Origin: a virus
Length of the DNA stretch: 25,738 bases
Reading direction: 5' to 3' (one strand)
IMG/VR virus record: IMGVR_UViG_3300044681_000219
Location: 1 to 25,738 of that record
The notes beneath the pieces were generated by a model. It did not search any database, was not told the origin of the DNA, and saw nothing but the letters and a program-made list of their open reading frames with translations. The stretch's first letter is position 1, and every line of letters starts with the position of its first letter. The translations under genes were made by a program, and so were the position numbers. This document shows positions 9,753-19,394 of the stretch, in pieces.

Positions 9753-12524
9753 GTGACTGGTTTGACTTATGCTAATCAGGTTGGTGCGCCGGGTGGGTTA
9801 AATCAGGCCGCTCCGGGGACGTTTATTCCAGAGGATTTTGTGCGCTGGTCGCAGGATGTGTTGTTTGATAGGGCTGGATTGTTGCGTCGTCGTAAGCCGT
9901 TTGAGACATTTACGCTTTATAATAATGATGGTAGTACGGTTAGTCAGCCATCTACTGCTGGAGAGCGTGTCATTGGTGTTATTTCTACGCTTAATTTTGA
10001 TAATGAAGCGGTTTTTGGTCTTGTTGTTACTAATGATACGATTATTCCTGCTTATACTAAAATTTATTTTTATGATAAAGAATTTAAGTATCAGTCTTTT
10101 TCTACGCTTGATGCTTTTTCTAGTAATGCTATTTTGTCTGCTAAGCCTGATATTAATAATAGTTTGTGGATTGGTATTTTAGACGAGTATGGTTTGGCGT
10201 CGGAGAGTAATACGCAACAATTGTATTATTGGCGTGGAGCGACGGGTGTTGATGGTACTACAATTACTTTTGTTGATGATAGTGGTCCCATAAATATTTA
10301 TGATAGTTGTGCTACTATTAGTGCTTATACTGTTACTGAGACTGTAGGCGCGTTAACCCCTAGTAATAAAATTCTTACTAATGTTATTAGTGTTAGTGCT
10401 TCTAATGCTACTTATACGTCTTCTTATAATTCTAATGAACTTAGTAAGGGTATGTTTTGTTTTGCGCGTCACCGGGACACTGGTGAAGAGTATTATATTG
10501 GAGATGTAAAAAGTTTTAATGCTATTAGTGTTACTTTAGAGAAGAATGTGCTTACATGGCCGAGTACTTTTGTTGATGAAGCACTTTCCGATTATTATGA
10601 CTTGGTTTTTTATAATACTCGTCCTTATATTCATAATCATGGACGAGGATTATTAACTATTGAAAAAGGTGCTACTAATTTAACTGGTGTTAGTGGTCCT
10701 ATTGGTAGTGAGGGTGAGGGGCATTTTGCGGCTGCTGGTCTTGGAGAAGTAGATCGCACATTTCGCGTATTTCGGTCGTCTGATAATCTTCTTTTAGGCG
10801 CGTTGACAAGTACGGATTCTTATAATGCTGCTCCTGATAATGAAACTTTAAAGTTTGAGTATGGTACAGCGAGTGGCGGCGGATCGTCAATTCAGTATCG
10901 GGCATTCGGCGATTTTACTGTTAAGATGGCTGCCGACGAGTATGTTATTTATGATACTACTAAGCCTGTTTCTTGGCATAAGGATCGTACTAATAAGAAG
11001 TTTCCCGGAGTATTTCATGCGACTTACTCGGGACTTAACTGGTATGGTAATGCTGGCGAATTAGAAAACCAGAATCGTATTGTATTTAGTGCTCCGCATA
11101 ATTCTGAAAGTGTTGATCTTTCTAAGGATTCTGCGGACTCTATTCTGCTGCCTACAAACCAGCAGATGCGTGGTATGGCTACGTCTAACTCTGGCCTTCT
11201 CGTATTTTTTGAGGATAAGACGTATATTATTCGTGGTAATTATCGTCTTAACTTTTCTGTAGAGGAGTTGTATCCTGAGGGGTGCTTGTCTGCTCAGAGT
11301 ATTGTAGAGTTTGGTGGTGGCGTGTTCTGGGCTTCTAAGCGTGGTATTATGCTATTTGATGGTAATACTGTACGTAATCTTGTTCAGGATAATCTTGGCT
11401 CGTATTATACTGATAGTATTAAGCCTTTTGATGCTATTAATAATGCTGTGTATGCGTTTGTGTATAAGGATTATTTGTTTATGCATTTTACTCGCTTCCA
11501 GTCTCCGTTTAATCCTGTTAGGTATGAGCCTATTTATGCAGAGGGTATTGATACTACGGAGGCTATTGCTAATTATACTGCTGAGGATTGGGATCCTGAT
11601 TTTGAGATTGATGATTTTGATCCTGTTAATAATGTTCCTATTTATTGGGATTATATTAAGATGTATAAGTCTGGGCGTACTGGTGCCTTATGGGGAGAAG
11701 ATGTTCCTTCAAACGAGACTTATTGGGGTGATGGGGATTCGGATGTGTATTGGGGGCCTATCTACCAAGATTATGGTATGACGTTTGCTATTTATCTTCC
11801 GACTAATGCTATCACTACGCTTAGTAATTTTGATTTTCGTGGTTTTACTTCGCTAGACTTGTTTGATGCTGTACGTGGTCTAGTTGGTGTTAACGCGGTT
11901 AATCCGACCGGAGTTGTTGGTGTTGCACCGCGCATTATTGATTTAGATAGTATGATGCGGATTGAGAATAATCATACGACTTCTGAGGATTCAGAGTTGT
12001 GTGAGAATGTTTTTAAGCCTGCTGAATTGTATTATAAGGGGCCTGATTTTTATCTTCAGACTAAGCATTATACGTTTGGTGATCCGACGCTGCGTAAGTG
12101 GTTCCGACAATTATTCCTTAATCTTTATCAGATTGATGGTGGTTTGCGGCTTGATATTGTTGATAATGAGGATAAGGATCTTATTGATATTGAGAAGAAG
12201 CGGCATCGTAATTGGGAGATTTTTGTTGAGGATTTGTATAATTGGGGAGAGATTCAAGATGTGATTCTTCCTAAGCAGTTGTCTCCTAATCGTTCTACGT
12301 GGGAGAATGTTGAGAATGTTGGCTTAACGTGGTACGAGTTTTCTGATGCTCAGTATGAGCGGCGTAAGAAGAAGTTTAGTTGGCGTTACCCTTCGATGGG
12401 TTTTCGTTTGTATCAGATGAATAATTTTAGGCCGCGTAATTATCAGACGGCTCAGCGTCCTCATACTGTGGATATTGATTCGTGGAGTATTGGTTTTAAG
12501 CCTATGCGTCAAAGTAGGGTGTAA
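9753..12524 (+). CDS. Tail nozzle protein (tail tubular protein B / gp10-like)
   Basis: A 923-residue protein from GTG at 9753, 7 bases after AGGGGG (9740-9745). The start GGLNQAAPGTFIPEDF (14-29) followed by DVLFDRAGLLRRRKPF is characteristic of T7 gp12- and P22 gp10-type nozzles. The body is beta-rich. Around residues 439-540 it carries NRIVFSAPHNSESVDLS, LLPTNQQMRGMATSNSG, LVFFEDKTYIIRG and GGVFWASKRGIMLFDG, the propeller-like signature of these proteins. The far C-terminus is rich in Tyr/Trp/Phe. It would build the tip of the short tail on the adaptor ring. It is longer than T7 gp12 (about 794), within the range of environmental relatives. Confidence 0.78.
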   Translation: MTGLTYANQVGAPGGLNQAAPGTFIPEDFVRWSQDVLFDRAGLLRRRKPFETFTLYNNDGSTVSQPSTAGERVIGVISTLNFDNEAVFGLVVTNDTIIPAYTKIYFYDKEFKYQSFSTLDAFSSNAILSAKPDINNSLWIGILDEYGLASESNTQQLYYWRGATGVDGTTITFVDDSGPINIYDSCATISAYTVTETVGALTPSNKILTNVISVSASNATYTSSYNSNELSKGMFCFARHRDTGEEYYIGDVKSFNAISVTLEKNVLTWPSTFVDEALSDYYDLVFYNTRPYIHNHGRGLLTIEKGATNLTGVSGPIGSEGEGHFAAAGLGEVDRTFRVFRSSDNLLLGALTSTDSYNAAPDNETLKFEYGTASGGGSSIQYRAFGDFTVKMAADEYVIYDTTKPVSWHKDRTNKKFPGVFHATYSGLNWYGNAGELENQNRIVFSAPHNSESVDLSKDSADSILLPTNQQMRGMATSNSGLLVFFEDKTYIIRGNYRLNFSVEELYPEGCLSAQSIVEFGGGVFWASKRGIMLFDGNTVRNLVQDNLGSYYTDSIKPFDAINNAVYAFVYKDYLFMHFTRFQSPFNPVRYEPIYAEGIDTTEAIANYTAEDWDPDFEIDDFDPVNNVPIYWDYIKMYKSGRTGALWGEDVPSNETYWGDGDSDVYWGPIYQDYGMTFAIYLPTNAITTLSNFDFRGFTSLDLFDAVRGLVGVNAVNPTGVVGVAPRIIDLDSMMRIENNHTTSEDSELCENVFKPAELYYKGPDFYLQTKHYTFGDPTLRKWFRQLFLNLYQIDGGLRLDIVDNEDKDLIDIEKKRHRNWEIFVEDLYNWGEIQDVILPKQLSPNRSTWENVENVGLTWYEFSDAQYERRKKKFSWRYPSMGFRLYQMNNFRPRNYQTAQRPHTVDIDSWSIGFKPMRQSRV

Positions 12525-12526
12525 TT

Positions 12527-13372
12527 ATGGCTGGTTATGATCTTAATACTGCTGCTGGTCAGGCAGAGTTTGAGCGGCGTATGGCGAGTATTATTAAGAA
12601 TGAGGTTGGTTCTTATACTCGTACTGCTTTGTCTCAGAGTCTTGGTGGTGTGCAGCAGACGCAGAATAATCTGGATAATACTAATCTTAGTATTGTTCCT
12701 ATTGGTAGTATTATTGCGTTTGGTGGTGTTACGCTGCCGAACGAATTTTTGTGGTGTGATGGTAGTCTTATTCGTAAGGATAAGTATGCTCGTTTGTTTA
12801 CTGTTCTTGGTGTTGATCGTTATGGTAGTGATACTTCTGATGAGTTTTATTTGCCTAATTTGCTTAGTAGAAATCCGCGAGGAGCGTCTAGTGTTAATGC
12901 TAATGTTAGCCTTAATGCTGTTAATGTTTTAAGTCATACGGGTGTATTAAATCATTTGCAGGCTAATACTAACGCTAATATTGCTATTGCCGATACAGAC
13001 CTTACTCATGCACATAATCATGATCATAATTTTAATCATGGTCATAGTAATAATAATGCTGGTCAAGGAGACACGCATAATCATGCTTTTCAAGGCGCTA
13101 CTACTAGTATTTCTCGTGCTGCTGGTAATCAGGCGGGCCTAGCGGCCGCTACACACAATCATGGTTTTACTGGTAGTTCGGCTACACATACTCATGCTCA
13201 TGGATTAAACTCAAATAATAGTAATGTGGGTGCTGGAAATAGTACAAACGCAAACGCTCTCGGTAATCATACTCATAATTTTGTTGGTGGCGTACGTGAT
13301 CATAGCATTAATGATCATACTGTTTCTAGTTTTTCTGCTTATCAAACTGTTAATTATATTATTAAATATTGA
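12527..13372 (+). CDS. Tail collar protein with histidine-rich tip
   Basis: A 281-residue adhesin from ATG at 12527, two bases after the nozzle stop. Residues 1-55 are helical (an anchor-like region). Residues 56-120 match a phage tail collar domain: IVPIGSIIAFGGVTLPNEFL, WCDGSLI, and then YARLFTVLGVDRYG and FYLPNL. The rest is Asn/Gly/His-rich with H-x-H pairs at 161-167, 171-173, 184-186, 210-212, 221-225 and 248-250, totalling 17 histidines in 161-265. In T4 gp37 and gp12 such H-x-H motifs bind Fe or Zn in a trimeric needle or spike. I infer a metal-held trimeric tip that touches the host surface. Confidence 0.82.
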   Translation: MAGYDLNTAAGQAEFERRMASIIKNEVGSYTRTALSQSLGGVQQTQNNLDNTNLSIVPIGSIIAFGGVTLPNEFLWCDGSLIRKDKYARLFTVLGVDRYGSDTSDEFYLPNLLSRNPRGASSVNANVSLNAVNVLSHTGVLNHLQANTNANIAIADTDLTHAHNHDHNFNHGHSNNNAGQGDTHNHAFQGATTSISRAAGNQAGLAAATHNHGFTGSSATHTHAHGLNSNNSNVGAGNSTNANALGNHTHNFVGGVRDHSINDHTVSSFSAYQTVNYIIKY

Positions 13373-13377
13373 GGATT

Positions 13378-14118
13378 ATGAAAACTATTCAATTTACTCC
13401 AATTAAAAAGTCTGTTTTGGGGCTTATCCCTCCGCCTATTCCGGCGAGTAAAATGCTACCAGAGTGGTATAAGCAGCAGAATAGTATTATTGATGATAAA
13501 CTTATTATGAATGATAAAGGTTCTTTAAATATTACTGTTAAAAAGTGTATGCCCGTACTTGATGATATGACAGCGGGATATTATATCACGCTTCCTTCGG
13601 ATGTTATTGTTTCTTTTAAAGAGGGACGAGCATTGTTTAGTTGGAGTTTAGATGTTTTATCTCAACAGAATACGGATGGTAAAATTGATGTTCTTCCTAA
13701 TTTAGTTTCTTCTCATAGTGTTGAGCAAGTATCTAATCTACAAATACCATATGAGTATTCTAATGAGCCGTTTAAGTGGAATAATTATTATCGTATTACA
13801 ACGCCTGAGGGTTATTCTTGTATGTTTAGGCAACCGTCTTGGCGTTTTGATTTGCCTTTTTATACGTTTTCTGGTATTGTTGATACGGATAAGCATCCTG
13901 TTCCTGTTAATTTTCCTTTTCTTATTCGTCAAGACTGGGAAGGTATTATTGAGGCTGGTACGCCTATTGTTCAGGTTATTCCTTTTAAGCGTACTGATTG
14001 GTCTTCTGAAGTTTTGGGTACTAATAATAAAAAGGGTTCGCGCGAATTTCGTAAAAGCACCAAGAAACTTATGCATCGTTATAAAGATAATTGGAGGAGT
14101 ATTAAGGTATGGAAATAA
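13378..14118 (+). CDS. Unknown protein in the fibre region
   Basis: A 246-residue protein from ATG at 13378, with GAGG (13371-13374) spanning the previous stop; a TTG at 13369 would add three residues but lacks a site. Conserved-looking parts are PPPIPASKMLPEWYK (18-32) and KKCMPVLDDMTAGYYITL (55-72), then a Trp- and Pro-rich centre (FKWNNYYRI; FRQPSWRFDLPF) and a basic helical end. Similar proteins, as I recall, occur near fibre genes of marine phages but remain uncharacterised. No signal peptide, membrane span or enzyme motif is visible. Its AT-rich, A-ending codons differ from the head genes. Confidence 0.6.
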   Translation: MKTIQFTPIKKSVLGLIPPPIPASKMLPEWYKQQNSIIDDKLIMNDKGSLNITVKKCMPVLDDMTAGYYITLPSDVIVSFKEGRALFSWSLDVLSQQNTDGKIDVLPNLVSSHSVEQVSNLQIPYEYSNEPFKWNNYYRITTPEGYSCMFRQPSWRFDLPFYTFSGIVDTDKHPVPVNFPFLIRQDWEGIIEAGTPIVQVIPFKRTDWSSEVLGTNNKKGSREFRKSTKKLMHRYKDNWRSIKVWK

Positions 14119-14516
14119 ATCCTATTATTCTAGCCCTTAGTATTCATGGGCGTATTTATTGTGGGCTTGATGCTGAGGAAGCGTTAGCCGTCGCCGAACA
14201 AACAGTCGAATTAGCAATGGCTGATAATGAGGCTGATATTGTTGATCTTCTTGATATGTTTGATGATGTTTGGGCTGCTAGTCTTCTTGCTGGGACTATT
14301 CATGATGAGTCTACGATTCCTGAGCATCCATTAGATAATAAAACAAGGGTTTTAAATAATGCGGCTGATCCTGAAGAGTATGAAATGCTTGCTCTTTTAC
14401 CAGAAGAAAATTTTGGTGTTAAAACTAAGCCGCCTAAGCGTTATAAAGACCCTAAGTTTGTTGCTGTTAAAAAGAATAAGAAAAAGCGTCGTAAATGGGA
14501 TAAAGGAGGTGAATAA
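14109..14516 (+). CDS. Unknown acidic protein with lysine-rich tail
   Basis: ATG at 14109 overlaps the previous gene by 10 bases and gives 135 residues. GGAGG (14093-14097) is 11 bases upstream. Residues 20-60 are acidic helices (AEEALAVAEQTVELAMADNE and DDVWAASLL), followed by a flexible part. The end is strongly basic, with KKNKKKRRKWDKGG near 120-133. No family is recognised. The acidic core plus basic tail is common among small virion or chaperone-like proteins. Its stop overlaps the next start (TAATG at 14514-14518), coupling it to the fibre gene. Confidence 0.6.
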   Translation: MEINPIILALSIHGRIYCGLDAEEALAVAEQTVELAMADNEADIVDLLDMFDDVWAASLLAGTIHDESTIPEHPLDNKTRVLNNAADPEEYEMLALLPEENFGVKTKPPKRYKDPKFVAVKKNKKKRRKWDKGGE

Positions 14517-16249
14517 TGGCTACTAGTGCTACTCCGACATATAATTTTCCGTATCCTCTTGGAACAGAATCTTTGTCGAATCTAAACGAGAATATTCAAG
14601 CGCTTGCTGAGCGCATTGAAGAGACTTATACTATTCTTGATATTAACCTGTCTGGTGCTGCTCAACTTGTGCAGGCGGGTGACGCTCTTGTCGCTGGTGA
14701 TATTCAAGGTAACTGGCCTACATTCACTATCCGTAATGATGCTGTAACAACGGATAAGATTCTTAATCGTAATGTTACTGGTAATAAGATTGATGAGTAT
14801 ACGATTACGAATATTAATGTTGATGATGATGCTATTGAGACTCGTAATATTCTTGATCAGAATGTGACGACTGCGAAGATTGATGATCTTGGTGTAACGA
14901 CTGCTAAGATTGATGATCTTGCGGTTACTACTGGTAAGATTAATGATGCGGCTGTTACGACCGCTAAGTTGGATGTTGTTGATCTTCCTGATGGTTCTAC
15001 GGCTAATACGTATGCTGTTAGTGATACCACGAATAAGGTTGCTACTAATGCTTTTGTGAATAATGTGGCGGCTAACTTTGTTCTTGGTGCATTATCGGCT
15101 AATAGCGTTGTAGAGTTCATGATGGATGATGATAGTGTTGATACTCGTGCTATTGTTGATGGTGCGGTTACGTCGGCTAAGATTGCTGATGATACTATTG
15201 TTAATGATGATGTGAATGCGTCTGCTGGTATTGTGTATTCTAAGTTGGATCTTACGGATAGTATTGTTAATGCTGATGTTAATAGTGCTGCTGCGATTGC
15301 GGATACGAAGTTGGATACGATTAGTACGGCGGGTAAGGTTGCTAATAGTGCGACTACGGCTACTGCTGATGATGATCCTAGTACGATTATGCTTCGTAAT
15401 GCTGATCGTGCTACGACTATTGGTGGTCTTGATTTTGATGTTACGAATATTCCTACTGATCAGGCTGCGCGTGTTGTGTGGAGTGTTGAGGATGGTGGTC
15501 CAAAGTTTGGTGCTACTGGTGGTCTTCAGGTTCCTATTGGGCAGAAGAATATTATTTTTGTGAAGAATGATTCTGGTGTGCAGATTCTTAAGGGTCAGTC
15601 TGTGATGGCTGTTGGGGTGACTGGTGATCGTATTAGAGTTGCTAAAGCGGTTGCTGATGGTAGTGTTAATGCTCGTTATATGCTTGGTATTGCTGCTGAG
15701 AATATTGATGATGGTACTGAGGGTTTTCTTGTTACGAATGGTTATGTTCGTAATGTGAATACTAGTGCTTATGGTTTGGGTACTGTATTATTTTTTGATC
15801 CTAATACTGCTGGTGGGCTTACTACTGTTGAGCCGTCTGCTCCTAATCTTAATCTTCCTGTTGCTATTGTTAGTAAGGTTAATGCTGCTAGTGGTATTCT
15901 TTATGTTCGTATGAAGACTGGTGAGTATCTTAATGAGGTTCATGATGTTCAGATTACGAGTGCTAGTGATGGTGACTCGTTAGAATACGATTCTGGTACT
16001 GGTGTTTGGAAGAATGTGCCTTATGGTAATGTTCCTGTGGGTACTATTACTGCGTATGCTGGTGCTACTGCGCCTGATGGGTGGCTTCTTGCTAATGGTG
16101 ATGTTGTGCCTAATGGTAGTGGCACTGTGCAGTCTAAGACGTATGATTTTGCTGCGTTGTATGCTATTGTGGGTTCGCAGTATGGTACTGCTGGTACGAT
16201 TCCTACGTTTTCTAGTACGACTGGTATTTATATTATTAAGGCGGTCTAG
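14516..16249 (+). CDS. Repeat-bearing tail fibre with C-terminal collar domain
   Basis: A 577-residue fibre from ATG at 14516, with AAAGGAGGTG (14503-14512) just upstream. Residues 5-35 (TPTYNFPYPLGTESLSNLNE, then NIQALAERI) are a standard fibre N-terminus that attaches to the tail. Residues 76-155 hold eight imperfect 10-residue repeats of the type [AV]-V-T-T-x-K-I-x-x-x, which build a trimeric shaft. Further repeats follow to about 300. Residues 345-480 are beta-rich. Residues 505-577 (VPVGTITAYAGATAPDGWLL and after) are a second collar-type domain, with YDFAALYAIVGSQYGTAGT near the end. It would be a receptor-binding fibre. Confidence 0.8.
   Translation: MATSATPTYNFPYPLGTESLSNLNENIQALAERIEETYTILDINLSGAAQLVQAGDALVAGDIQGNWPTFTIRNDAVTTDKILNRNVTGNKIDEYTITNINVDDDAIETRNILDQNVTTAKIDDLGVTTAKIDDLAVTTGKINDAAVTTAKLDVVDLPDGSTANTYAVSDTTNKVATNAFVNNVAANFVLGALSANSVVEFMMDDDSVDTRAIVDGAVTSAKIADDTIVNDDVNASAGIVYSKLDLTDSIVNADVNSAAAIADTKLDTISTAGKVANSATTATADDDPSTIMLRNADRATTIGGLDFDVTNIPTDQAARVVWSVEDGGPKFGATGGLQVPIGQKNIIFVKNDSGVQILKGQSVMAVGVTGDRIRVAKAVADGSVNARYMLGIAAENIDDGTEGFLVTNGYVRNVNTSAYGLGTVLFFDPNTAGGLTTVEPSAPNLNLPVAIVSKVNAASGILYVRMKTGEYLNEVHDVQITSASDGDSLEYDSGTGVWKNVPYGNVPVGTITAYAGATAPDGWLLANGDVVPNGSGTVQSKTYDFAALYAIVGSQYGTAGTIPTFSSTTGIYIIKAV
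14741..14980 (+). repeat. 30-bp imperfect tandem repeats in the fibre shaft
   Basis: Eight 30-base units encode the 10-residue shaft motif. The clearest are 14864-14893 and 14894-14923, which encode VTTAKIDDLG and VTTAKIDDLA and match at most positions, with synonymous drift in others. Such units allow shaft length to change in steps of ten residues without loss of frame. Confidence 0.8.
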
Positions 16250-16251
16250 TT

Positions 16252-16740
16252 ATGAGTGTTCTTGGTCATGGTGTTGAGATTGTTCCTAGTGCTTTACAGC
16301 GGCCTACTACCCCAACAGAAGGAACGCTTATTTACCAATTAGATAATCATAAATCTTTTATTTATAATGGTTCTTCTTGGATTGAAATTAATGATTTAGA
16401 TAACACGGGCGCGGCGACCGACGGTTTAATTACCGCATTAACGGGTAAAATGAATACGGGCTCTTATATTAGCGCACATGGTGGTCTTGTATACGGTAAT
16501 ATGTATGCTGGAACAAGCGGCGCAGTTACTAAAAATATTGGAACTGTAACTCATAATTTTGGAACGGGTAATTATTCAATTAATTTAACTCCTTGGACTA
16601 CAAACGCCTATAATGATGGTTTTTCTGCAAATGCACAGTCTAGAACCTCTAATAGTTTTGCTATTATTATTAGTCGTGTAGGCGGCTCTGGTTGGGGAGA
16701 TACTGGTCTTTATTGTTCTTATTTTGCTTGGCGATGGTAA
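16252..16740 (+). CDS. Adhesin paralogue 1 with MSVLGHGVE head
   Basis: A 162-residue protein from ATG at 16252, two bases after the fibre stop. It opens with MSVLGHGVEI and then RPTTPTEGTLIYQLDN and a YNGSSWIEI strand, a head shared with the genes at 16756 and 17723. The distal part (about 70-162) is Gly/Asn/Ser/Thr-rich and ends with an aromatic cluster, LYCSYFAWRW. No match between its distal part and the other two is apparent. I infer a small adhesin or fibre-tip protein whose head docks on a common partner. Distal codons are more A-rich than in the upstream fibre. Family assignment is by resemblance only. Confidence 0.65.
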   Translation: MSVLGHGVEIVPSALQRPTTPTEGTLIYQLDNHKSFIYNGSSWIEINDLDNTGAATDGLITALTGKMNTGSYISAHGGLVYGNMYAGTSGAVTKNIGTVTHNFGTGNYSINLTPWTTNAYNDGFSANAQSRTSNSFAIIISRVGGSGWGDTGLYCSYFAWRW

Positions 16741-16755
16741 TAAGGGAGGTGTAGT

Positions 16756-17406
16756 GTGAGTGTTTTTGGTCATGGTGTAGAAGTTTGTACTAGCACTACT
16801 CGTCCTACTCCTACTGAGGGTAGTCTTATTTACGAGACTGATACTAATAAGTTAATGCTTTGGAATGGTACTAGTTGGGTAACTCCTATGACTAATCAGA
16901 GCGCTGGCGGGGATCTCAGTGGTACATATCCTTCTCCAACAATTAGCAGCGTTCCACACGCGGCTTTCCCATCGGGGACAATTGTTCAAATACAAACAAG
17001 AGTAACTAGCGCCTCTCAATCTTGGAATAGTTATGCTAATAATACTACTGATTGTTATTGTTATATTACTCCAAGGTTTAATGATTCTAAAATTTTTGCT
17101 ATTTGTACTGCTGCTGTGTTTCATGATACACAGGGTAGTGATACCGGTTATGGTGGCGGTATTTATAGTAATATTGGTGGTCAGATTTTTCCGGGTTCAA
17201 AAATCGCTCATGGTTATGATGGCGGCGGTGGTGGAGCAACTAATCTTGCCATTACACATCTTGCAAGCCCAAACTCAACAAGTAATCATTATTATCAGTT
17301 AACGCTTATGCCCTATAATAATAACTCTGGTACTAGGGTTTATCTTAATCGTAATTATCAGGGCACTGATTATTCTCGTATGACTTTGTTTGAGGTAAGG
17401 CCATGA
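16756..17406 (+). CDS. Adhesin paralogue 2 with MSVFGHGVE head
   Basis: A 216-residue protein from GTG at 16756, preceded by AAGGGAGG (16742-16749). It has the shared head (MSVFGHGVEV, then RPTPTEGSLIYETDTNKLML and SWV). This is followed by GGDLSGTYPSP (51-61), a motif seen in many fibre proteins. Residues 75-216 form a Gly/Asn/Tyr/Thr-rich beta region with several Cys (TDCYCYI). The end, YSRMTLFEVRP, is hydrophobic, like a packed C-terminal strand. It overlaps the chaperone-like gene by four bases (ATGA), which fits a fibre and its helper. I infer a receptor-binding or decoration role. Confidence 0.7.
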   Translation: MSVFGHGVEVCTSTTRPTPTEGSLIYETDTNKLMLWNGTSWVTPMTNQSAGGDLSGTYPSPTISSVPHAAFPSGTIVQIQTRVTSASQSWNSYANNTTDCYCYITPRFNDSKIFAICTAAVFHDTQGSDTGYGGGIYSNIGGQIFPGSKIAHGYDGGGGGATNLAITHLASPNSTSNHYYQLTLMPYNNNSGTRVYLNRNYQGTDYSRMTLFEVRP

Positions 17407-17711
17407 TTATTTCTGATTATATTGCTGCTATTATTTCTTTGCGTCCTGATGCTGATTTTACTTTGCATGATTCTAATAATTTAGATACTCTTGAGTGGAT
17501 TACTTGTGTTGATCCGCCTAGTATTGAAGAGATTATTTTAGAACAGAAGCGTTTGCAAAATGAAGCAGAATTATTTGATTATCAGATAAAACGTAGGTTT
17601 GAATATCCCAATATTGGTGATCAGTTAGATGCGCTTTATCATGCTGGTGTTTTTCCTACTGATATGGCAGAACAAATTAGACTAGTTAAAGAAAAGTATC
17701 CTAAACCGTAA
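17403..17711 (+). CDS. Probable tail fibre assembly chaperone (XkdW-like)
   Basis: A 102-residue protein from ATG at 17403 that overlaps the previous stop. The N-terminal half has SLRPDADFTLHDSNNLDTLE (12-31) followed by WIT and a helix IEEIILEQKRLQNEAE (41-56). The end carries RRFEYPNIGDQLDALYH (64-80), a signature common in small proteins just downstream of phage fibre genes. The layout resembles XkdW and related tail-assembly helpers. It sits between two paralogous adhesins, so it likely helps one or both to fold. Its length and composition are typical of such chaperones. Confidence 0.65.
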   Translation: MIISDYIAAIISLRPDADFTLHDSNNLDTLEWITCVDPPSIEEIILEQKRLQNEAELFDYQIKRRFEYPNIGDQLDALYHAGVFPTDMAEQIRLVKEKYPKP

Positions 17712-17722
17712 GGAGGTGTTGT

Positions 17723-18334
17723 ATGAGTGTACTAGGACACGGAGTAGAAATATGCACTACAGCAACACGCCCTGCTAGTGCGCCTAATGGGACTCTTATT
17801 TTTGATACTGATACTAGTCAGTTACTTGTTAGGGTTGGTGGTAGTTGGGTTAATCCTGTTAGTAATCATAATGTTGGCGGGGACCTTAGCGGTACCTACC
17901 CTAATCCAATACTTCCTAGTGGTTCTGTTTTACAGTTTTCTAATAGACAAGAAAATACATCAAGAAACGTTTCTGGTGGAACACCAATAGAATATACACA
18001 AATGACTCAAACATTAACAACAGGTGGCAATAGTCGTGTAGTAGTACAAGGTAAGTTTGCTTCAATGCAAGGAATGGGTAGCGTTACGGTTAGAAGTCAT
18101 TTTAATGTTACTTTAAATAATTCAACAGTTATTGGTGGCGGGGCATGCGAGTGGAATAATAATGGTTGGGAAGTTAAAGAAGTACCTATTTATGGCGTTA
18201 GTGGTGTTCTTCCAGCGGGCACTTATACTATGCGTATTAAAAATTGGTTAAGTAGTGGTAGTTATGTTCAATGGAATTGGCATAGTTATACTGAACAAAT
18301 AACTAGTGTTAGTTTTATGGAAATTAAGGCCTAA
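17723..18334 (+). CDS. Adhesin paralogue 3 with recoded MSVLGHGVE head
   Basis: A 203-residue protein from ATG at 17723 after AAGGAGG (17710-17716). The head is MSVLGHGVEI, then RPASAPNGTLIFDTDTSQLL and SWV, and it has GGDLSGTYPNP (52-62). The head's codons differ systematically from those of the first paralogue. The distal half (about 70-203) is unlike the others and has an A-rich base composition (29 A of 60 at 17941-18000). It contains strands such as GSVTVRSHFNVTLNN and a closing Trp-rich YVQWNWHSYTEQITSVSFME. This looks like a carbohydrate- or receptor-binding beta-sandwich, but that is inference. It is probably an exchanged tip module. Confidence 0.68.
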   Translation: MSVLGHGVEICTTATRPASAPNGTLIFDTDTSQLLVRVGGSWVNPVSNHNVGGDLSGTYPNPILPSGSVLQFSNRQENTSRNVSGGTPIEYTQMTQTLTTGGNSRVVVQGKFASMQGMGSVTVRSHFNVTLNNSTVIGGGACEWNNNGWEVKEVPIYGVSGVLPAGTYTMRIKNWLSSGSYVQWNWHSYTEQITSVSFMEIKA

Positions 18335-18348
18335 TAGGGAGGTGACTT

Positions 18349-18609
18349 ATGATTGATGATGCAACAACAAATTTTGGCTTCAAGCATCTAGAGGGATCCG
18401 ATGAAGCCGGATATAATAGTATTAATGAACTTGTTACGGATATTGATAATGAGTTGTATGATCGGGTCGCTGTTCCCGGTATGGTTATGATTTTTGATAC
18501 TGCGGGTAGTATTCCTACTGGGTGGACTAATCTTGGTCAGAATCCGGGTAACGCATTACCCGACCTTAGTGGTGATACGGTGTATACTTGGATTAAGAAG
18601 GATGCTTAA
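18349..18609 (+). CDS. Mini tail-collar protein
   Basis: An 86-residue protein from ATG at 18349 after GGGAGGTG (18337-18344). Residues 7-40 (TNFGFKHLEGSDEAGYNSIN, then ELVTDIDNELYDRV) look like a fibre-type anchoring N-terminus. Residues 41-60 (AVPGMVMIFDTAGSIPTGWT) are the start of a tail collar domain, comparable with VPVGTITAYAGATAPDGW in the 14516 fibre. The rest ends after NLGQNPGNALPDL without the full collar. It is therefore a minimal anchor-plus-collar protein, perhaps a cap or spike. It closes the adhesin cluster. Confidence 0.6.
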   Translation: MIDDATTNFGFKHLEGSDEAGYNSINELVTDIDNELYDRVAVPGMVMIFDTAGSIPTGWTNLGQNPGNALPDLSGDTVYTWIKKDA

Positions 18610-18611
18610 TA

Positions 18612-19394
18612 ATGGCTAGTATCCAAGATTATATTAGTGGTAGTGGCGCTGCCGCTATCGCTTATCGTAATGCGCTTAATCAGTCTAAAGATACTGTTAA
18701 TGCTCTATTCCGTTCTTATGGTTGGAATATGCCGGGTGCTAGTGGTTATAGCGTTGAGAGCGCTCAAGGCGCGTTTGATCCTAATAAGTTGTTTGATGTT
18801 AATACTGGTGGTCTTGATCTTGATAAGGTTAAGGCGATGGCGGGACAATTATCGTATGGTGGTAAGGGTGTTATGGCTGATATTGCTCGTGGTGGTGGCG
18901 CTGCTGAGGCGGATGTTGCGCTTGGATTGCGCGAAGCGGGCATTGCGCGGGGTGGCCTTGCCGAGCAGCGTAGGCGCCTTGTAGAGGCTCAGACGGGTAA
19001 AGAGATGACTGGTGCTAAGGAGCAGTTCCTTGCTGGCCTTGCTGGTGCTTATGCGCCTATTGGTACGGCTTATCAGGATGTGCTTGCTGAGAAGGTTGCG
19101 GCTGAGGCTGATACGGAAGGCAGTTCTGCTGAGGCTGACACTACACCTAATTATGCTGATACTACTGTGACGCCTCCTATTCCTGTTGCGCCTATTTTTC
19201 CAGCGACGGCTAATACGGCTGGTGGTGTTCTTCCGGGGCCTTCTCGCGGTAGTTATACTGTTAAGGGTACTCCTACTGGGGATGTGCCGAGGAATCCTAA
19301 GCCGGGACAGACGTTTAAGGGGCGTGGTGGTGTTAGTTGGGTTTATCGTGAGCGCGGACCTAAGGGTGCGGGCTGGTATAAGAAGGGGGCGTAG
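18612..19394 (+). CDS. Putative internal virion protein 1
   Basis: A 260-residue protein from ATG at 18612. The N-terminal two thirds are helical and Ala/Gly-rich, including LREAGIARGGLAEQRRRLVE (105-124) and LAGLAGAYAPIGTAYQDVLA. A Pro/Thr-rich linker (about 170-225) follows. The end is basic, GQTFKGRGGVSWVYRERGP then KGAGWYKKGA, and may bind DNA. The place between adhesins and a giant protein matches the internal core proteins of T7-like phages, so I infer an ejected or core-associated protein. No enzyme domain is visible. The family is not named with confidence. Confidence 0.6.
   Translation: MASIQDYISGSGAAAIAYRNALNQSKDTVNALFRSYGWNMPGASGYSVESAQGAFDPNKLFDVNTGGLDLDKVKAMAGQLSYGGKGVMADIARGGGAAEADVALGLREAGIARGGLAEQRRRLVEAQTGKEMTGAKEQFLAGLAGAYAPIGTAYQDVLAEKVAAEADTEGSSAEADTTPNYADTTVTPPIPVAPIFPATANTAGGVLPGPSRGSYTVKGTPTGDVPRNPKPGQTFKGRGGVSWVYRERGPKGAGWYKKGA

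Follow-up and report, generated by a model that had tools for sequence, protein, structure and literature searches.

Receptor-binding proteins of the short-tailed phages K1-5/SP6 and Klebsiella KP32/KP34 carry short conserved N-terminal docking peptides of 7-11 residues (PMC6872550). In the K1 lyase of Klebsiella phage NTUH-K2044-K1-1 (PDB 7W1C), a collagen-XVIII-like domain lies at residues 10-70 (PMC8822698), and in the branched tailspike complex of Ackermannviridae, TSP1 and TSP3 have a TD1 docking domain in common, for which gene duplication has been proposed (PMC11414711). Neither modular tips nor N-terminal docking peptides are new. The closest known kind to the locus described here is that of the multi-adhesin podoviruses with short conserved N-terminal attachment peptides (K1-5, KP32/KP34). 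The likeness lies in the short tail, a conserved N-terminus of very few residues (down to 7 in those phages) with a variable distal part, and tips that differ between near relatives; here too, the short N-terminal peptide, which we call GHG after its motif, is conserved across the phage group while the rest varies. There are also differences: K1-5 has two adhesins with different peptides whereas the window, i.e. the whole 25,738-base stretch of DNA analysed, has three adhesins with one peptide; the K1-5, KP32 and KP34 adhesins usually carry an enzymatic depolymerase whereas the small tips of the window's three adhesins gave no depolymerase match; and the quoted KP34 heptapeptide, MALxxLV, bears no relation to the GHG peptide. 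We regard the locus as a variant of the known kind, which departs from it by three tandem adhesins with one peptide and one module, and by the swap of all three tips between near-identical phages.

The adhesin island of the window

The window (44% G+C) is a phage fragment from an IMG/VR virus record, in which terminase, portal and major capsid genes are present according to PHROG matches. The phage is uncultured, and its gene set points to a short tail. An actinobacterial host is likely, because the portal's nearest named relatives come for the most part from phages of Arthrobacter, Microbacterium and Cellulosimicrobium (25-28% identity). The adhesin island follows the nozzle, with genes starting, in order, at 12527, 13369, 14109, 14516, 16252 (A), 16756 (B), 17403, 17723 (C) and 18349. 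The features concerned are:

264-1004, + strand: structural gene upstream of the terminase; N-terminus SYSDLDTVPTKTAGVSPVLASDWNTYVRDNFDSL, then a degenerate RP...SWV-like module (426-512, E = 0.002)
9753-12524: tail protein called nozzle from its position, 923 aa; weak PHROG matches only
12527-13372, + strand: small tail protein; N-terminus DLNTAAGQAEFERR.. (DLNTAAGQ..), Collar tip (E 1.1e-12)
14516-16249, + strand: long fibre, 577 aa; own N-terminal anchor TPTYNFPYPLG.., C-terminal Collar domain (Pfam, E 2.2e-6)
16252-16740, + strand: adhesin A, 162 aa, intact reading frame; N-terminal peptide 16252-16299 (MSVLGHGVEIVPSALQ), RP...SWI module 16300-16389, tip 16390-16737
16756-17406, + strand: adhesin B, 216 aa, GTG start, intact reading frame; peptide MSVFGHGVE, RP...SWV module to about 16887, linker GGDLSGTYPSP 16906-16938, tip 16939-17403
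17403-17711, + strand: small accessory gene, 102 aa, phrog_9114; starts within the last bases of B
17723-18334, + strand: adhesin C, 203 aa, intact reading frame; peptide MSVLGHGVE, RP...SWV module to about 17857, linker GGDLSGTYPNP 17876-17908, tip to 18331
18349-18609, + strand: a further anchor type found in this island (NFxFxxLxGxDxAGYNSIN..), 86 aa, Collar-like stub tip

The 249-aa protein of 13369-14118, which strongly matches phrog_7084 (E 8e-52; a family without known function), is placed after the Collar protein and ahead of the fibre both in the window and in its sister phage L003. The counterpart of gene 18349 in the relative L068 has 421 aa and a full Collar.

The original prediction had described A, B and C as three adhesins with one shared head and unrelated distal domains. 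Sequence comparison confirms homologous starts and distal parts unrelated by sequence. A and C have the same nine N-terminal residues, from which B departs at one position, and in alignments against 300 shuffles the heads, taken as the first 44-46 residues, gave z = 25.0 (A/B), 19.7 (A/C) and 27.1 (B/C), compared with 1.0, -0.5 and 0.8 for the tips in the same order. The GGDLSGTYP-x-P motif announced for the last two genes is present in both as the linker. A fourth gene, 17403-17711, lies between B and C and goes with tip B. Homology between the distal parts was looked for and none was found by sequence; heads without a common fold were looked for likewise, and the heads share a predicted one, which in the AlphaFold models of B and C comprises a strand at 9-11, a helical turn at 13-15 and strands at 24/25-28, 32/33-38 and 41-43.

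It is probable, in our judgement, that A, B and C are paralogous tail adhesins, each built of an anchor peptide, a clamp module, an optional linker and an exchangeable tip. We propose that the short N-terminal peptide M[ST]V.GHGVE, with a few further residues, would plug the adhesin into the tail, and that the 35-residue RP...SWV module would trimerise it as a small clamp, with the optional GGDLSGTYP linker between module and tip. The exchangeable distal tip would bind the host surface, a role assigned by analogy because confidence in the predicted tip folds is low. Recombination beside the conserved start would replace the tip, or tip and clamp, sometimes with the linked helper gene 17403. 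Through such a set of tips, the host range may be broadened.

Tip C is predicted as all-beta with low confidence (AlphaFold model md3cdcefef534; tip pLDDT near 48), and neither tip B nor tip C is confidently modelled. No PDB match at E<=0.001 was obtained by Foldseek with model C, and its weak lectin- or carbohydrate-module-like matches were set aside, the tip pLDDT being near 48. A homology of tips B and C, hinted at by PSG[TS][IV][VL]Q close to the beginning and [TS][LF]xEx close to the end, was rejected for sequence: BLASTP gave E 0.30, the shuffled alignment the z of 0.8 above, and the profile of tip B with a 49% relative matched 19 columns of tip C with a probability of 4.7% (hhalign). 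Both tips may be beta-sandwiches. Searches in named phages gave no matches for tips B and C and one non-significant Proteus match for tip A; a DNA search of the named phages found no match, nor did a search of genome contigs with tip C. Codon usage of the tips (-0.16 to 0.08 bits/codon) lies 1.9-2.8 sd under the mean of 120-codon core blocks (0.575, sd 0.265), with some core blocks equally low; this fits a recent arrival of the tips and is only suggestive.

A sister phage with the same starts and other tips

A degenerate DNA pattern for MSV[LF]GHGVE located L003 (IMGVR_UViG_3300025889_002199), the one close sister phage behind the comparison of the triplicate, which matches the window at 96.7% identity along 12,125 columns (12.1 kb), up to gene A. 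Strains with swapped tips had been suggested as a check, and L003 is such a strain: the three heads are kept in the window's order and all three distal parts are different. In gene A, codons 1-16 hold 2 synonymous and no amino-acid changes, and codons 17-46 hold 18 amino-acid changes; in gene B, codons 1-38 hold 2 synonymous changes and 1 amino-acid change, beyond which the sequences are unrelated, with 9 amino-acid changes in codons 39-48; in gene C, codons 1-43 hold 3 synonymous changes and 1 amino-acid change, and the sequences differ thereafter. The break points are sharp, falling at codon 16 in A, codon 38 in B and codon 43 in C. The tip of A is a Collar domain in L003 and that of B a C1q domain (PF00386, E 3.5e-10), while gene C runs past the contig end with another sequence as its distal part. 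Gene 17403 is absent, B ending at 13399 and C starting at 13410. Two phages of 97% identity with the same three starts and three different ends amount to a clean natural experiment on tip change in short-tailed phages, in which the crossover points can be read to the codon; the modularity and swapping of these genes are shown. The tail-fibre island has the look of a small natural rack for exchanging tips.

The conservation of the starts also bears on how the three adhesins are used. Each head shows 0-1 amino-acid changes against its positional counterpart in L003, compared with ~50% identity to its neighbours, and the order of the heads is the same in both phages; homogenisation might be expected of freely interchangeable copies. 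This positional likeness mildly favours specialised heads, by which A, B and C would each occupy their own tail position, in fixed numbers and free of competition, and the two adhesins of K1-5-like phages do bear different peptides (PMC6872550). However, the nine residues are the same in A and C with one difference in B, so that one site could take all three, and the triplicate is known from two phages only. We hold separate positions to be possible, though somewhat doubtful.

Alternatively, one tip would be used at a time, the others being spare for recombination by cassette switching. The tandem homologous starts and common GGDLSGTYP linkers would be ready crossover sites, and a recombination-endonuclease-VII-like gene adjoins the GHG gene in L056. 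Yet the three reading frames are intact, strong Shine-Dalgarno sequences stand at B and C, and the changes in the conserved starts between the window and L003 are mostly synonymous, so all three genes look used; such a reservoir seems to us highly improbable. It is conceivable, since A, B and C have one anchor and one probable trimerization module in common, that one clone makes virions with a random mix of the three tips, or even mixed trimers. We give this little chance; if true, particles of one phage would differ in receptor specificity, a protein-level bet-hedging with no genetic switch.

Relatives with a single GHG gene

A profile of the nozzle yielded 34 loci, whose islands were read. 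GHG-type genes are single-copy in every locus read but the window and L003, and among the scanned IMG/VR contigs just 6 contain the pattern M[ST]V.GHGV[DE], as a single copy in all but L003. Strains with fewer copies, the other proposed check, are consequently at hand: the remaining relatives have one copy each, most of them with other tips, and the triplication is lineage-specific. The tip is a Collar in L067 and L068, a phrog_4492 fibre C-terminus in L062 and a phrog_30994 match in L057; bar the near-identical pair L067/L068, the distal parts differ among the six contigs. A related start, MTV.GHGYD, is followed in L045, L055 and L056 by a body without RP...SWV. The GHG-Collar gene (L068:2917-3420, L067:514-1194) encodes 226 aa in one of the pair and 167 aa in the other, the C-terminal ends differing in otherwise near-identical contigs; a frameshift would fit. 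In L056, the endonuclease-VII-like gene (16765-17181; PF02945, E 3.7e-8) stands just before the GHG gene and may drive the exchange of tips within the island.

Gene 17403 matches phrog_9114 over residues 5-102 of 102 (E 4.6e-16), a family of unknown function. A relative of tip B (49%) is found in L081-L084 on a foreign N-terminus, and in L084 a homologue of 17403 follows it directly (BLASTP E 4e-23). Because this homologue adjoins the tip-B relative on a foreign N-terminus, tip B is mobile together with gene 17403, and the two are, as far as sequence tells, a travelling pair. Gene 17403 may be a tip-specific assembly helper, which suggests a tip that travels with its own helper gene.

The RP...SWV module

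The module has a length of ~35 residues and lies directly behind the N-terminal peptide M[ST]V.GHGVE (9-16 residues). Apart from its degenerate form in gene 264-1004, it occurs behind a different N-terminus in a gene upstream of the terminase in L071-L073, and behind yet another, together with the tip-B relative, in L081-L084. Because the module occurs behind other N-termini, anchor peptide, module and tip are three separable parts. The shared head of the original prediction is thus homologous in the three genes but consists of two separable pieces, the nine-residue start and the RP...SWV stretch. Likewise, the idea of alternative tips on one docking head holds for the common start and the swapped tips, but docking by the whole 45-residue head does not stand, as its RP...SWV part follows other N-termini and, in gene A and in L084, is exchanged together with the tip.

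The module is probably a trimer clamp rather than a dock, as far as models and profiles indicate. It is predicted confidently in C (pLDDT block means 88-91, residues 11-40) and moderately in B (66-83). The collagen XV/XVIII trimerization domain PF20010 matches it at E 0.0038, with 16.3 bits for protein C and 17.7 bits for its module, below the gathering score of 23.8 bits; hhalign against collagen XVIII gave p 0.0012, a match that modestly exceeds all 200 shuffles (17.9 vs best 16.6). Foldseek with the whole model listed no match to a collagen trimerization domain. In the K1 lyase, the collagen-XVIII-trimerization-like domain comes straight after a short N-terminal stretch, which is the layout proposed for A, B and C; however, the tip of the lyase is an enzymatic beta-helix, the window's module of ~35 residues is predicted only, and the module has no significant sequence match to the lyase (PDB 7W1C). 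The locus sets the likely docking peptide apart from the likely trimer clamp.

A CTSTTRP...IYETDTNR module stands upstream of the distal part in a structural gene of Bxz1-type mycobacteriophages (Alice gp112) and of Gordonia and Rhodococcus relatives. There it is internal, at one place per record and with no GHG peptide, and these phages are contractile-tailed (a tail sheath gene lies nearby). The distal part of Alice gp112 has a weak, non-significant resemblance to CD40 ligand (TNF-like). A weak module match to PDB 9D83 (Gp49; E 0.041) was also obtained, and a literature search on 9D83 returned nothing relevant.

Candidate docking partners

The GHG genes lie directly 3' of the fibre gene, and adhesins that dock on a first fibre are known in G7C and KP32 (PMC6872550); the adhesins might then form a branched complex on the long fibre 14516 instead of on the tail body, a dock that had been suggested together with the nozzle. 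The Ackermannviridae complex, like the window, combines several adhesins, conserved N-terminal parts and exchangeable tips, but it has large gp10-like platforms and tailspikes. An anchor protein bearing a T4 gp10-like docking domain is likewise a mark of the K1-5, KP32 and KP34 kind. A single-sequence search of the fibre against the PDB (phmmer) found no T4 gp10-like platform, with nothing at E<=1. Moreover, the central domain of the fibre is present only in the window, L003 and L067 among the fetched loci, and the fibre N-terminus had no match in L067 (a 45-kb contig) and L068. Because the GHG gene is present in L067 and L068 without such a match, the GHG peptide is unlikely to dock on the fibre, and we consider a branched complex unlikely as well. 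The 12527 protein and the nozzle are better candidates, because a 12527-type N-terminus is found in 10/11 GHG contigs, and the one contig lacking it is truncated.

In some relatives the adhesin island also contains a family-2 glycosyltransferase-like gene (PF00535, E about 2e-9), at L057:13745-14809 and L051:16236-17297, and in L056 a gene that only resembles it, at 18291-19358. Collagen-like GPQG repeats occur in the fibre/adhesin genes of L040, L041, L042, L043, L049, L052 and L059, and the window fibre has VTTAKIDD-type repeats in their place.
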